IMG/VR virus record: IMGVR_UViG_3300034170_000105
Location: 1 to 41,659 of that record
Origin: a virus
Reading direction: 5' to 3' (one strand)
Length of the DNA: 41,659 nucleotides
Every line of letters starts with the position of its first letter. Position 1 is the stretch's first letter. The position numbers were made by a program, and so were the translations under genes. The notes under the pieces are model-generated. The model was not told the DNA's origin. It saw nothing but the letters and a program-made list of their open reading frames with translations, and did not search any database. Shown piece after piece: positions 2,034 to 17,083 of the stretch.

Positions 2034-2043
2034 CCCAGACGTG

Positions 2044-2069
2044 GAAAGGGCACCTTGCGATGCCCTTTC
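2044..2069. repeat. array hairpin 1
   Basis: Stem gaaagggca (2044-2052) pairs with tgccctttc (2061-2069), 9 bp, loop of 8 nt. It starts about 10 nt after the holin stop codon. No T-run follows on either strand, so it is not an ordinary terminator. Confidence 0.85.
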
Positions 2070-2173
2070 ACCCCTGCCCTGCCGCGCCTGACCGGGCCGC
2101 ACCCCGCCGCGCAATGCCAGTCCCGGCCGTGCCGTGCGCTACCGTGCCGCGCCTTATTGCAACAATGCACATG

Positions 2174-2202
2174 GAAAGGGCGCCCGTCGAGAGCGCCCTT
2201 TC
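2174..2202. repeat. array hairpin 2
   Basis: Stem gaaagggcgc (2174-2183) pairs with gcgccctttc (2193-2202), 10 bp, loop of 9 nt. It is preceded by TGCACATG. Same stem family as hairpins 1 and 4. Confidence 0.85.
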
Positions 2203-2298
2203 ACCCTTGCCCTGCCATACCAGACGCATGCCGCACCCTACCGAGCCAAGCCCCGCCGATCCGAGCCGTGCACCGCCAGAATCGAAACCGTACATGCG

Positions 2299-2326
2299 GA
2301 GGGCGCACCTGTGAAGATGCGCCCTC
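2299..2326. repeat. array hairpin 3
   Basis: Stem gagggcgca (2299-2307) pairs with tgcgccctc (2318-2326), 9 bp, loop of 10 nt. It is preceded by GTACATGCG. Second stem family, shared with hairpins 5 and 6. Confidence 0.85.
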
Positions 2327-2426
2327 TCCCAAGCCCAGCCCTGCCGAGCCTGTCCATTCCTAGCCCGGCCGGTCCTCGCCTGACCATTCCATGTCCGGTC
2401 ATACCGAGAGCCCGACAATGGACATG

Positions 2427-2454
2427 GAAAGGGCGCCCGTAAAGACGCCCTTTC
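2427..2454. repeat. array hairpin 4
   Basis: Stem gaaagggcg (2427-2435) pairs with cgccctttc (2446-2454), 9 bp, loop of 10 nt. It is preceded by GGACATG. Confidence 0.85.
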
Positions 2455-2564
2455 ACCCTTGCCATGCCTAACCCGTCCGCGCCATACCGGGCCACACGAG
2501 GCCGAGCCTTTCCCCGCCAAACACTGCGTTGCGCTGCCGGACCCAGAATCAGACTGTACATGCG

Positions 2565-2592
2565 GAGGGCGGAGCCCGAAAGCTCCGCCCTC
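2565..2592. repeat. array hairpin 5
   Basis: Stem gagggcggagc (2565-2575) pairs with gctccgccctc (2582-2592), 11 bp, loop of 6 nt. The stem top differs from its relatives on both arms, a compensatory change. It is preceded by GTACATGCG. Confidence 0.85.
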
Positions 2593-2688
2593 TCCCATGC
2601 CGAGCCCCACCGCACCCCGCCATGCACTACCGTACACTGCGATGCCTACTCCAAACCGAGCCGCGCCGAGATGCACACTGTACAGGCG

Positions 2689-2716
2689 GAGGGCGCACCC
2701 CGAAAGATGCGCCCTC
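2689..2716. repeat. array hairpin 6
   Basis: Stem gagggcgca (2689-2697) pairs with tgcgccctc (2708-2716), 9 bp, loop of 10 nt. It is the copy nearest the RAMP-like gene. It is preceded by GTACAGGCG. Confidence 0.85.
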
Positions 2717-2806
2717 ACCCATGCCCTGCCGATCCTCGCCGAGCCACTCCGAGCCGCACCCTGCCGAGCCGTACTCTGCCCGGCCCTACCGTGCCGTCTG
2801 ATAAGC

Positions 2807-3457
2807 CTAGTTCCTCGGCCGCCCTTTGGCTACCTTCGCCACATCCGGAGCTTTTTCCGGAGCTTTCGGCGCCGCCTCGTTTATCTTTTCGACGGTGAAG
2901 CGGCCGAACCTGGGCCGCCAATCTCCGATTCCGATTTGCTCGCCTGCCGTGACCAAAAACGATTCAATGTCAGCCTCATTCAACAGGCTCGGCAGGAACC
3001 GCACGGTGATGTCCGCACTCCAATCGTCGAACCTGGGCCGCGTCCGCATGACGCGCGATGTTGTGACCCTCGCCGAAATCCGCAGGCGGAAGCTCTCATC
3101 TTTCCAGAGGGCATCCGGGCTCCGCGGCCCTTTGTAGAGCAGCGGCGAGTTGCTCTCGACCAGCAGGCCAGCCTTTGCGGCCGGGCCGCGCTTTTCCTTC
3201 ATGGCGCCTTTGATTAGGACAGCCTCTATCATCTCGGCAGGCAGGCAGGGCTCGCCATTCATCAGGTAGAGCCCGCCCATGAATTCGCGCCTTTCGATTT
3301 CCCTATGGTCTGCCTCAACTTTTTTTCGTTTTGATGTAAGGGCGGCAATGCTCTGTGAAAACTGGTTGAGCGGGTCTGCAAGTTGTCCGTTGTGCATAAG
3401 CAACGGTGCGGCGCCCGTGATCCGAAAGCTCAGGGGCTTGTATGCGGACATTCTCAA
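2807..3457 (-). CDS. conserved phage protein, possible RAMP/Cas7-like nucleic-acid binder
   Basis: 216 aa. I recognise the pattern from other phages but know no assigned function. The N terminus reads as a beta strand plus loop (LSFRITGAAPLLMHNGQ, about 9-25). A basic helical stretch follows (TSKRKKVEADHREIERREF, about 41-59), then GGLYL and a GPRSPDALWKDESFRLR segment. The end has GIGDWRPRFGRF (about 177-188), like the Gly-rich loop of RAMP/RRM-fold proteins such as Cas7. The tail is Lys/Pro/Ala-rich. That resemblance is by eye and tentative. The start is at 3457 or 3451; the domain begins straight after. The first 143 nt overlap the end of the HNH gene. The stop touches the pentamer array, so the array is probably its 3' tail. 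An alternative is a single-strand annealing or ssDNA-binding protein, a role not otherwise obvious in this window. Confidence 0.45.
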   Translation of the reverse strand: MRMSAYKPLSFRITGAAPLLMHNGQLADPLNQFSQSIAALTSKRKKVEADHREIERREFMGGLYLMNGEPCLPAEMIEAVLIKGAMKEKRGPAAKAGLLVESNSPLLYKGPRSPDALWKDESFRLRISARVTTSRVMRTRPRFDDWSADITVRFLPSLLNEADIESFLVTAGEQIGIGDWRPRFGRFTVEKINEAAPKAPEKAPDVAKVAKGRPRN

Positions 3458-3758
3458 CCTCGACTGCTGGGGTTATCCTCGCGACATCGGCGACCACAAT
3501 TTTCACGAGGGCGTACCGCTCCGCCCGCTGGCGGTTCGTAATCAAGTCATGACAGGGTGTGCAAAGGGTGGTCAGAGCGTCGAGACAATCGAGACTCCAC
3601 CTATTGGCGGGCGGATACCGACGATGATGAACCTCAAGGCTATCGTCCGAATCGCAAAGGCGACAGCGGCGCCCGTCGCGCTTCAAGGCTTTCTCCCTGA
3701 GCCGCGCCCACGCTGCCGACGCAATATACTGGTCGTAATTCAACCTTCCCGATCCCAC
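3315..3758 (-). CDS. HNH endonuclease
   Basis: 147 aa HNH-type nuclease. Visible motifs are a helical start (YIASAAWARLREKALKRDG), a zinc pair CRLC (about 33-36), the His-His of EVHHRRYP (about 45-46), the Asn/Asp-containing middle, and the second zinc pair CTPCH (about 68-72). This is the compact phage HNH fold that nicks or cuts DNA. Such genes often sit next to terminases, but this one precedes the RAMP-like gene on the minus strand and runs 143 nt into it. The C-terminal 47 residues, within the overlap, look less conserved. The GTG start at 3758 is preceded by AGGGG. Only 26 nt separate it from the divergent XRE gene. Confidence 0.82.
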   Translation of the reverse strand: MGSGRLNYDQYIASAAWARLREKALKRDGRRCRLCDSDDSLEVHHRRYPPANRWSLDCLDALTTLCTPCHDLITNRQRAERYALVKIVVADVARITPAVEVENVRIQAPELSDHGRRTVAYAQRTTCRPAQPVFTEHCRPYIKTKKS

Positions 3759-3784: not shown

Positions 3785-4060
3785 ATGGGCAACAATGCAA
3801 GGGTGCCTTGCTCTATTTCCGCCGCGCAGTGCCGGGCGGCGCGAGCCATGTTGAACTGGACAAGGGAGCAGCTTGCAGAGCGCAGCGGCGTTTCGCTGAG
3901 AGCCTTGAATGATTTTGAAACCGGCGCCCGCGTGCCGCGCGCTTCAACAGTTGCGCCGCTGCTCTCGACTTTTGGAAAGGCCGGAATCGGGTTCATCTTT
4001 ATTCATGATGCGGAGGGCGGTGTCATTATGATAGTTGAGACAAAATTCACCGCCAAATAA
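3785..4060 (+). CDS. XRE/Cro-family HTH regulator
   Basis: 91 aa DNA-binding protein with one HTH: AAQCRAARAMLNWTREQLAERSGVSLRALNDFE (helices about 13-46), then GARVPRASTVAPLL and GIGFIFI. It resembles single-domain repressors common in alphaproteobacterial phages and is related to the second XRE gene at 9628. It is divergent from the HNH/RAMP-like pair, with 26 nt between starts, so it could control that operon and itself. That role is inferred from position. Confidence 0.8.
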   Translation: MGNNARVPCSISAAQCRAARAMLNWTREQLAERSGVSLRALNDFETGARVPRASTVAPLLSTFGKAGIGFIFIHDAEGGVIMIVETKFTAK

Positions 4061-9627: not shown

Positions 9628-9855
9628 GTGATAATAACCGCCGCTCAATGCCGGATGGCTCGCGCTGCGTTGACCTGGACTCTTGCCGACCTTTCCAGAA
9701 AAACAGACATCAGCGACAGCACAATACTTCGCTTCGAGCGCGGGCAACATGTGCCACGCAACCCGTATCTGCGGGCGATGCGCGCTGCATTCGAGGACGC
9801 CGGCATTGTATTTAACCAAGACGGCTCGGTCCGGCCGCCGCCTGGAACTTGGTGA
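9628..9855 (+). CDS. XRE/Cro-family HTH regulator, second copy
   Basis: 75 aa repressor-like protein with an HTH: ITAAQCRMARAALTWTLADL then SRKTDISDSTILRFERG (about 3-40), followed by the helix LRAMRAAFEDAGIVF. It shares the AAQC-xAR-A-L-WT pattern with the regulator at 3785. The GTG start at 9628 lies at the end of a 491-nt gap with inverted repeats, so autoregulation and control of the divergent minus gene are likely by position. Short for a lysogeny repressor; Cro-like size. Confidence 0.8.
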   Translation: MIITAAQCRMARAALTWTLADLSRKTDISDSTILRFERGQHVPRNPYLRAMRAAFEDAGIVFNQDGSVRPPPGTW

Positions 9856-15849: not shown

Positions 15850-16139
15850 AGGCCGCGCGACAGCCCCGCGGGCCTCCGCCGCTGTCGCTCCCGCTGGCGG
15901 AGCCGCTGCGCTCGCTCTCCGCGCGGCTCGACGGCGCCGGCAGAATCACTTGCGGCAAGCTCACTCTTTCTGGACCTCACCCTATCGTTGCGCTCTGCCG
16001 TCGCCTGCGGCGTGCTGGCGTTCCCGATGTCGCCCTGCGGGTGTCGCATCCTGACCGCTCTCCGGCCGCGCTCGTGCTCAGCATCCACGCGACAGCGGGC
16101 TGGTCGAATGCCGCACTCAGCGGAGGCAAGCGACAATGA
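15846..16139 (+). CDS. hypothetical protein
   Basis: 97 aa, basic and Pro/Leu-rich at the N terminus, with a beta-like centre (RITCGKLTLSG) and PDVALRVSHPDRS. Coupled on both sides by 4-nt overlaps (ATGA). Function unknown. It lies immediately before the initiator gene and may be part of the replication operon. Confidence 0.55.
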   Translation: MKAARQPRGPPPLSLPLAEPLRSLSARLDGAGRITCGKLTLSGPHPIVALCRRLRRAGVPDVALRVSHPDRSPAALVLSIHATAGWSNAALSGGKRQ

Positions 16140-17083
16140 GCTGGCGCGCGACCATGTGGGTTCAAAGCCTGACGGGGGCGGATGGTGTCAATCTGGGACG
16201 CAAAATGGTGCTGTTCGGCCTCGCGAAATATGCCGACAGGGACAACGGAGTCGCGTTCCCGTCGATCGCGCGGCTTGCGGAATTCGCCTGCATCGACCGG
16301 CGCTCGGTGCGGCGCATGCTGACCGAGCTTGTCCAGGCGGGCCTTGTCGCGGCCGAGAGCGTGCGCAACGGCGGCCGGAAGCGGACGACGCCCTATCGCC
16401 TGCTGATACCGCCCGGCTTCGGCCGCAACGGCAGCGGCGGCCCGCCCGACTCGATAAACGAGGACTCAGAGTCCGCCTTTTCTGAAAACGAGGACTCAGA
16501 GTCCGCCTTTTGCGTCGAAAAGGAGGACTCTATGTCCGCGTTCGGTGAGAGAAAGGAGGACTCTATGTCCGCGTTTTCGGCAAAGGAGGACTCAGAGTCC
16601 GTCTTTATGCAGGCCGAAACAGCGGAAAGGAGGACTCATTACGGTCAAAAGGAGGACTCTGAGTCCTCCCAACCTGTAATTGAACCTAAGGAAGTAAGTA
16701 AGAAAGGGAGCGAGAGTCGCGGGCGGGCGCCCGCGCGCGCGCACACGCGAGATGTATTTTTATCTCGTTTTTCAAATGAAAATTGGGAGTTCACCGACGA
16801 GCGCCGAGCGGTCGCGGCGGATCTCGGGCTTGACCCCGACCCGGTGTTTCGGGTTTTCTCGGCATGGCACCGATCGCGACCCGGAGACGCCGGCCTCTCC
16901 GCCGACTGGGACGCTTCCTGGCAGCTCTGGTGCCTCCGCGAAGTCGGCCGCAACGAGCGCCGCGACCAAGGCCCCCAGCCTCGAGCGAGGCGCGAGACGC
17001 AGGCCGAGGCGCTGCTGCGAATGGCCGACGAGATCGACGCCGAAGCGGCGGCCGAAGCGAAGCGGCCGAAGGTGCTGCAATGA
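16136..17083 (+). CDS. replication initiator, lambda O-like, with internal iterons
   Basis: 315 aa. The N-terminal winged-helix domain (about 1-95) reads AKYADRDNGVAFPSIARLAE and DRRSVRRMLTELVQAGLV, the usual phage replication-initiator/O-type HTH. Residues about 105-185 are a low-complexity linker with five EDSESAF or EDSMSAF units and two partial ones, created by DNA repeats. The C-terminal domain (about 205-315) is helical with ERRAVAADLGLDPDPVFRVFSAW, as in the DnaT/O C-terminal part that binds a helicase or loader. The linker repeats encode near-palindromic iterons, as in lambda O, where ori lies inside the gene. The gene overlaps its neighbours by 4 nt. Confidence 0.75.
   Translation: MSWRATMWVQSLTGADGVNLGRKMVLFGLAKYADRDNGVAFPSIARLAEFACIDRRSVRRMLTELVQAGLVAAESVRNGGRKRTTPYRLLIPPGFGRNGSGGPPDSINEDSESAFSENEDSESAFCVEKEDSMSAFGERKEDSMSAFSAKEDSESVFMQAETAERRTHYGQKEDSESSQPVIEPKEVSKKGSESRGRAPARAHTRDVFLSRFSNENWEFTDERRAVAADLGLDPDPVFRVFSAWHRSRPGDAGLSADWDASWQLWCLREVGRNERRDQGPQPRARRETQAEALLRMADEIDAEAAAEAKRPKVLQ
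16461..16790. other. probable replication origin: iterons plus AT-rich segment
   Basis: Seven copies of AGGACTCAGAGTCC or variants begin at 16461, 16491, 16524, 16557, 16587, 16631 (left half only) and 16653. The last (16651-16669) is a perfect 9-bp inverted repeat around a central T. The first five are 30 or 33 nt apart, keeping the reading frame. Directly 3' the sequence becomes AT-rich (16676-16705 and 16751-16788, including ATGTATTTTTATCTCG), unlike the rest of this GC-rich phage. Iterons inside the initiator gene followed by AT-rich DNA match the layout of lambda ori. Confidence 0.7.

Follow-up and report, generated by a model that had tools for sequence, protein, structure and literature searches.

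Positions 2034-2806 of the window (the whole stretch of DNA analysed, 41,659 nt, IMG/VR virus record IMGVR_UViG_3300034170_000105) together with the neighbouring genes are almost certainly a phage-borne VIPR locus with three guides aimed at the packaging genes of rival phages. According to PMC13142463 (bioRxiv 2026.04.26.720920), VIPR consists of the RAMP protein Vipr and of vrRNAs, which carry 9-16 GGY/NN repeats and a constant, structured 3' tail; the NN dinucleotides read DNA, and between one dinucleotide and the next a target base is skipped, in most cases the wobble base of a codon. In the paper RNA binding, the 1-nt skip, repression and phage defence are shown for the SUSP1 and P. fulva systems, and of its seven VIPR types only III and V, which are antiviral and especially frequent in defence islands, are said to have nucleases. 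The locus is phage-borne in that the window is listed as a virus in IMG/VR and carries terminase, portal, capsid and endolysin genes.

A pentamer array downstream of a RAMP gene

Autocorrelation of CC over 2034-2806 (plus strand) gave a clear peak at lag 5 (72 vs 26 in dinucleotide shuffles, z=10), with further peaks at lags 10, 15, 20, 25 and 30, and the 5-nt phase of the original prediction is thereby confirmed. When the whole window was searched for six CCs at 5-nt spacing with at most one mismatch, 54 matches were found where 1.4 were expected, 52 of them inside 2034-2806 and two outside. Read on the minus strand (2806-2034), the array lies directly downstream of the RAMP (Cas7-like) gene and is made up of six units, in each of which a GC-rich hairpin comes after a GGYNN pentamer tract (Table 1). 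Segmentation, partial units included, gave 83 of 105 units starting with GG, with 12-15 GG units in each of the six tracts; some pentamers are imperfect and there are 1-nt slips in two tracts (2670-2595 and 2278-2205), one more than had been counted from the letters. The tracts had been described as linkers in NNCCN phase (NGGNN on the minus strand). Their period stands, but function lies with the minus strand, on which the motif is GGYNN, and the preference for a pyrimidine at position 3 had been missed.

Table 1. Features of the VIPR locus and its candidate accessory gene (window coordinates)
Feature	Position	Strand	Description
HNH endonuclease gene, candidate accessory	3315..3758	-	PHROG HNH families; intact CxxC-HH-CxxCH
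vipr gene (RAMP/Cas7-like)	2807..3451	-	phrog_4652; PDB 36pp_D; AlphaFold2 model
vrRNA A	2689..2797	-	tract 2797-2719; tail hairpin 2716-2689; without convincing target
vrRNA B	2565..2670	-	tract 2670-2595, one 1-nt slip; tail hairpin 2592-2565; match to gpA-type terminase
vrRNA C	2427..2546	-	tract 2546-2457; tail hairpin 2454-2427; no target found
vrRNA D	2299..2408	-	tract 2408-2329; tail hairpin 2326-2299; match to PF06381 portal genes
vrRNA E	2174..2278	-	tract 2278-2205, one 1-nt slip; tail hairpin 2202-2174; match to terminase large subunit gene
vrRNA F	2044..2156	-	tract 2156-2072; tail hairpin 2069-2044; no target found

A 15-nt period equals five codons, and the tracts could be taken for the coding sequence, on the GG strand, of a low-complexity protein that repeats every five residues (G-x-A-R-x type). 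Long open frames do span parts of the array of this GC-rich phage, and open frames of like composition are present in relatives. However, none of the GG-strand frames of the window array is free of stops, and two other loci, L108 and L142, have at least 11 stops per frame. In addition, hairpins break up each tract, 1-nt slips occur, and the third base is constrained to Y in all codon positions. The protein-coding explanation is refuted by the stops and has practically no probability left.

Segmentation also confirmed the six hairpins, 124-138 nt apart. In an alignment of the six, the 11-bp stem pairs in 100% of the cells, and 6 of the 11 stem pairs show changes on both sides, a pattern that was absent when the partner was slid along. 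The claim of compensated stems under selection for structure is therefore upheld. The tail of a relative, L141, resembles those of the window. A pseudoknot is described for the SUSP1 clade, and no conserved one was evident in the six window tails. Searching the array against Rfam gave no matches at gathering scores and a single sub-threshold snoRNA match, and accordingly no hammerhead was recognised in the array.

Alternatively, the hairpins could be terminators between convergent genes, with the pentamers as a by-product, either as a 2-tier G-quadruplex RNA or as a decoy for a host RNA-binding protein. The array is indeed located between convergent genes (stops at 2033 and 2807), and GGs at 5-nt spacing fit the general formula for a 2-tier G-quadruplex. 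On the other hand, the six hairpins are without T-runs, a pyrimidine after GG is not required by a bare G-quadruplex, and the tight linkage to vipr in unrelated phages as well as the decoded targets (see below) would be left unexplained, which makes this explanation very improbable.

What points to VIPR is the neighbouring protein. The product of the vipr gene belongs to phrog_4652, a family without assigned function, but matched as a single sequence PDB 36pp_D, 'SUSP1 Vipr protein' (E=2.4e-29; 36% identity between the window and SUSP1 proteins), and the family profile matched one solved structure convincingly, the same 36pp chain D (E=7.9e-42). An AlphaFold2 model of the window Vipr (mean pLDDT 94) was nearest to the Csm3/Cas7 backbone proteins of class 1 CRISPR (Foldseek E 4e-05, Csm complex subunits), so the gene had rightly been called RAMP-like. 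Since the arrays lie beside a homologue of the SUSP1 Vipr (36pp), we assign the locus to the VIPR systems; in the SUSP1 genome, too, GGYNN tracts adjoin the vipr gene. The original prediction knew of no named RNA or repeat class with this architecture, which does match the VIPR vrRNAs as they are described in PMC13142463, a preprint of 2026. Class 1 CRISPR-Cas was considered as well and rejected, as the array has no near-identical repeats and no Cas family was found among 10 neighbouring proteins.

The same arrays in other phages

A blind scan of IMG/VR with twelve CCs at 5-nt spacing, and no other input, returned at least 120 stretches, which left at least 106 loci when simple repeats were removed. 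Among the matches listed, a vipr homologue was found in 80 of 106 array loci, mostly within a few hundred bases, and in these 80 loci the GG strand was the coding strand of vipr in all but a few tracts. The matches listed gave 290 tracts selected on GG alone, and in their 3930 pentamers position 3 was C or T in 92%, with positions 4-5 near random. In the reverse test, 19 new loci (some of them near-duplicates) were picked by the Vipr protein, and 16 of the 19 had tracts within 1.5 kb of vipr on the same strand, while none had tracts on the opposite strand. One of the three exceptions, L145 (5995-6561), has vipr broken into two frames and no tracts near, as a decayed system would, and from its sequence may be a decayed VIPR locus. 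Related arrays beside homologous genes, the absence of which would have spoken against the original prediction, were thus found from both directions. BLASTN of the window array against phages gave no match, as is expected when guides are hypervariable.

Other features were observed in these loci. Good pentamer tracts without a recognisable vipr in the stretch examined were seen in 26 of them (e.g. L037, L042, L062 and L065), which may be guide-only elements, have distant Viprs or lie on cut contigs. The spacers between tracts at L117:4357-5142 look like decayed copies of the vipr 3' end, which suggests that arrays may grow by duplication along with the end of the vipr gene. At L106:3251-5306, vrRNA-like tracts are scattered over several intergenic gaps and not gathered in one array, and some of them sit directly upstream of a ribosome-binding site.

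Decoding of the six guides

Each guide was represented by a core of nine dinucleotides in a row, separated by single wildcard bases, and IMG/VR was scanned for exact matches to it. The guide D core had 52 matches, all 52 in one gene and antisense to it; the skipped base falls on the wobble position, and the codons spell L-[ED]-W-[MI]-Y-R-G-S-W. Both targets tested are portal proteins (PF06381). For the guide E core, 18 of 19 matches were in one gene family, reading [IM]-A-L-D-K-P-[ED]-D-V, and the single target tested is a terminase large subunit. The guide B core matched five times, each time in a long open frame reading [DE]-P-A-P-[IM]-L-V-L-M, and the alignments read, for two of its targets, show homology to the gpA-type terminase of the window itself. 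Extended to 11 dinucleotides, guide D had one exact match in named genomes, in the PF06381 portal gene of Pseudochelatococcus contaminans (Hyphomicrobiales), and in 297 genomes of this order target D was matched twice. No target matches a guide over its full length, the best agreeing at 26 of 30 bases. Guides C and F had no exact 9-dinucleotide match in IMG/VR, and the one match of guide A (in L165, 26/30 bases) falls in a seemingly non-coding frame and was left out of the targets; the counts of 0-1 for A, C and F show what is obtained with an unmatched pattern of such size. The tracts do keep their period and vary in sequence, as had been noted, but they are more than periodic: the NN dinucleotides are the targeting code.

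It could be argued that the locus is a VIPR locus with other true targets, and that the decoded ones are coincidences with conserved motifs, as the exact matches span 9 of 10-15 dinucleotides, agreement is lower in the dinucleotides on either side, and only three of the six guides have target matches. This is unlikely, however, because 75 of the 77 matches from all six guides fall in packaging genes in a single antisense codon register with the skip at the wobble base, and guides A, C and F, scanned by the same design, gave 1, 0 and 0 matches. Moreover, the reversed-pattern control for guide D gave 0 matches in the 297 genomes. We therefore keep to packaging genes as the likely targets. An all-against-all test of the skip rule on the fetched loci showed no signal above shuffled guides, probably owing to few targets in that set, and motifs D and E did not occur together in any one fetched stretch. 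As the B, D and E motifs are conserved across many phages, the matches do not single out the actual rival.

The window phage has a portal of the lambda family PF05136 and a gpA-type terminase, and the D and E motifs are absent from the window. Its own terminase carries the site D-P-T-S-I-L-V-L-M, which is homologous to the guide B targets and ties for B's best place in the window, failing the nine-codon core only at the adjacent T and S codons. From this we infer that guide B, by its looks, is directed against a close competitor, with the phage's own gene just beyond reach.

Elsewhere in the window, two tandem, adjacent glycosyl hydrolase 108 endolysin genes were found at 183-803 and 790-1395. 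At 16456-16606, within the gene of an O-like replication initiator (16136-17083), a 30-bp unit with the core GAGGACTC...GTCC is repeated about five times; by this analysis the repeats resemble origin iterons such as those in lambda O.

The HNH neighbour and comparison with known systems

The end of the HNH gene lies about 140 nt inside vipr, overlapping the vipr start. HNH-profile matches in frames inside vipr were discarded and an intact CxxC-HH-CxxCH was required, and by this rule the same overlap, with different HNH sequences, was found in relatives of the window's Vipr, namely L141, L142-144, L149-151, L146-148 with L022, and L039; L145 has a related gene at the same place with its last zinc-binding motif off pattern. 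The Viprs with HNH overlap lie in one clade (support 0.91, FastTree), to which SUSP1 does not belong and in which other members have no HNH. Judged from sequence, the HNH enzyme may plausibly be the nuclease partner of Vipr. Divergent from the HNH-vipr operon is a helix-turn-helix gene (3785-4060), which has a similar stretch at 9634-9813 (42% identity) and a homologue (58%) near the vipr of L141.

As a tentative proposal, which we hold to be possible and rather doubtful, the locus could represent a phage-borne VIPR subtype in which an HNH nuclease and Vipr are coupled through the overlap of their genes, packaging genes of rivals are cut by the complex instead of being silenced, and one guide two codons away from the own terminase provides a simple self/non-self rule. 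The locus already has a name, VIPR, with decoded packaging-gene targets, and the HNH overlap may be a variant.

On the minus strand the locus reads HNH gene, vipr and the six vrRNAs, and the window copy is presumably expressed and active. Vipr protomers, probably one per pentamer, would coat the tract via GGY and leave the NN dinucleotides presented, which would pair with double-stranded DNA, passing over one target base for each dinucleotide. Three guides would be aimed at the portal and two kinds of terminase large subunit in competing phages or prophages. Silencing of the packaging genes would be the most likely outcome, or their cutting if Vipr has the overlapping HNH enzyme as a partner.

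Among systems of RNA-guided DNA recognition VIPR is very new, and it has been proposed to predate CRISPR. The window locus lends independent support to its code: a start from the bare letters arrived at GGY/NN arrays and a neighbouring protein like those published, and with the 1-nt skip rule of the paper three anonymous tracts could be read as phage portal and terminase motifs. The locus also makes packaging genes likely natural targets and contributes an HNH neighbour on a phage, as well as a guide close to self, by which self-avoidance becomes testable.

Like SUSP1 VIPR, the window system is phage-encoded, with a Vipr RAMP protein, GGY/NN tracts with structured 3' tails, an array downstream of vipr and 1-nt-skip matches to competing elements. 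Unlike in SUSP1, all six vrRNAs are downstream of vipr and none upstream, the tail is a simple GC-rich hairpin with no evident pseudoknot, a vap1 homologue is absent from the window and an HNH gene overlaps the vipr start, and the guides match portal and terminase genes, whereas those of SUSP1 match a satellite. With the RAMPs of class 1 CRISPR (Csm3/Cas7) it shares the fold, an RNA-coating protein and a guide with a constant handle, but the window has no CRISPR repeats or cas genes, and the pentamer guide is a non-contiguous code whereas class 1 CRISPR pairs contiguously. The TRAP protein, which binds (GAG/UAG-NN)11 RNA, is similar to VIPR in being a protein oligomer that reads triplets at a 5-nt period, although TRAP, unlike VIPR, is a ring protein of tryptophan attenuation.
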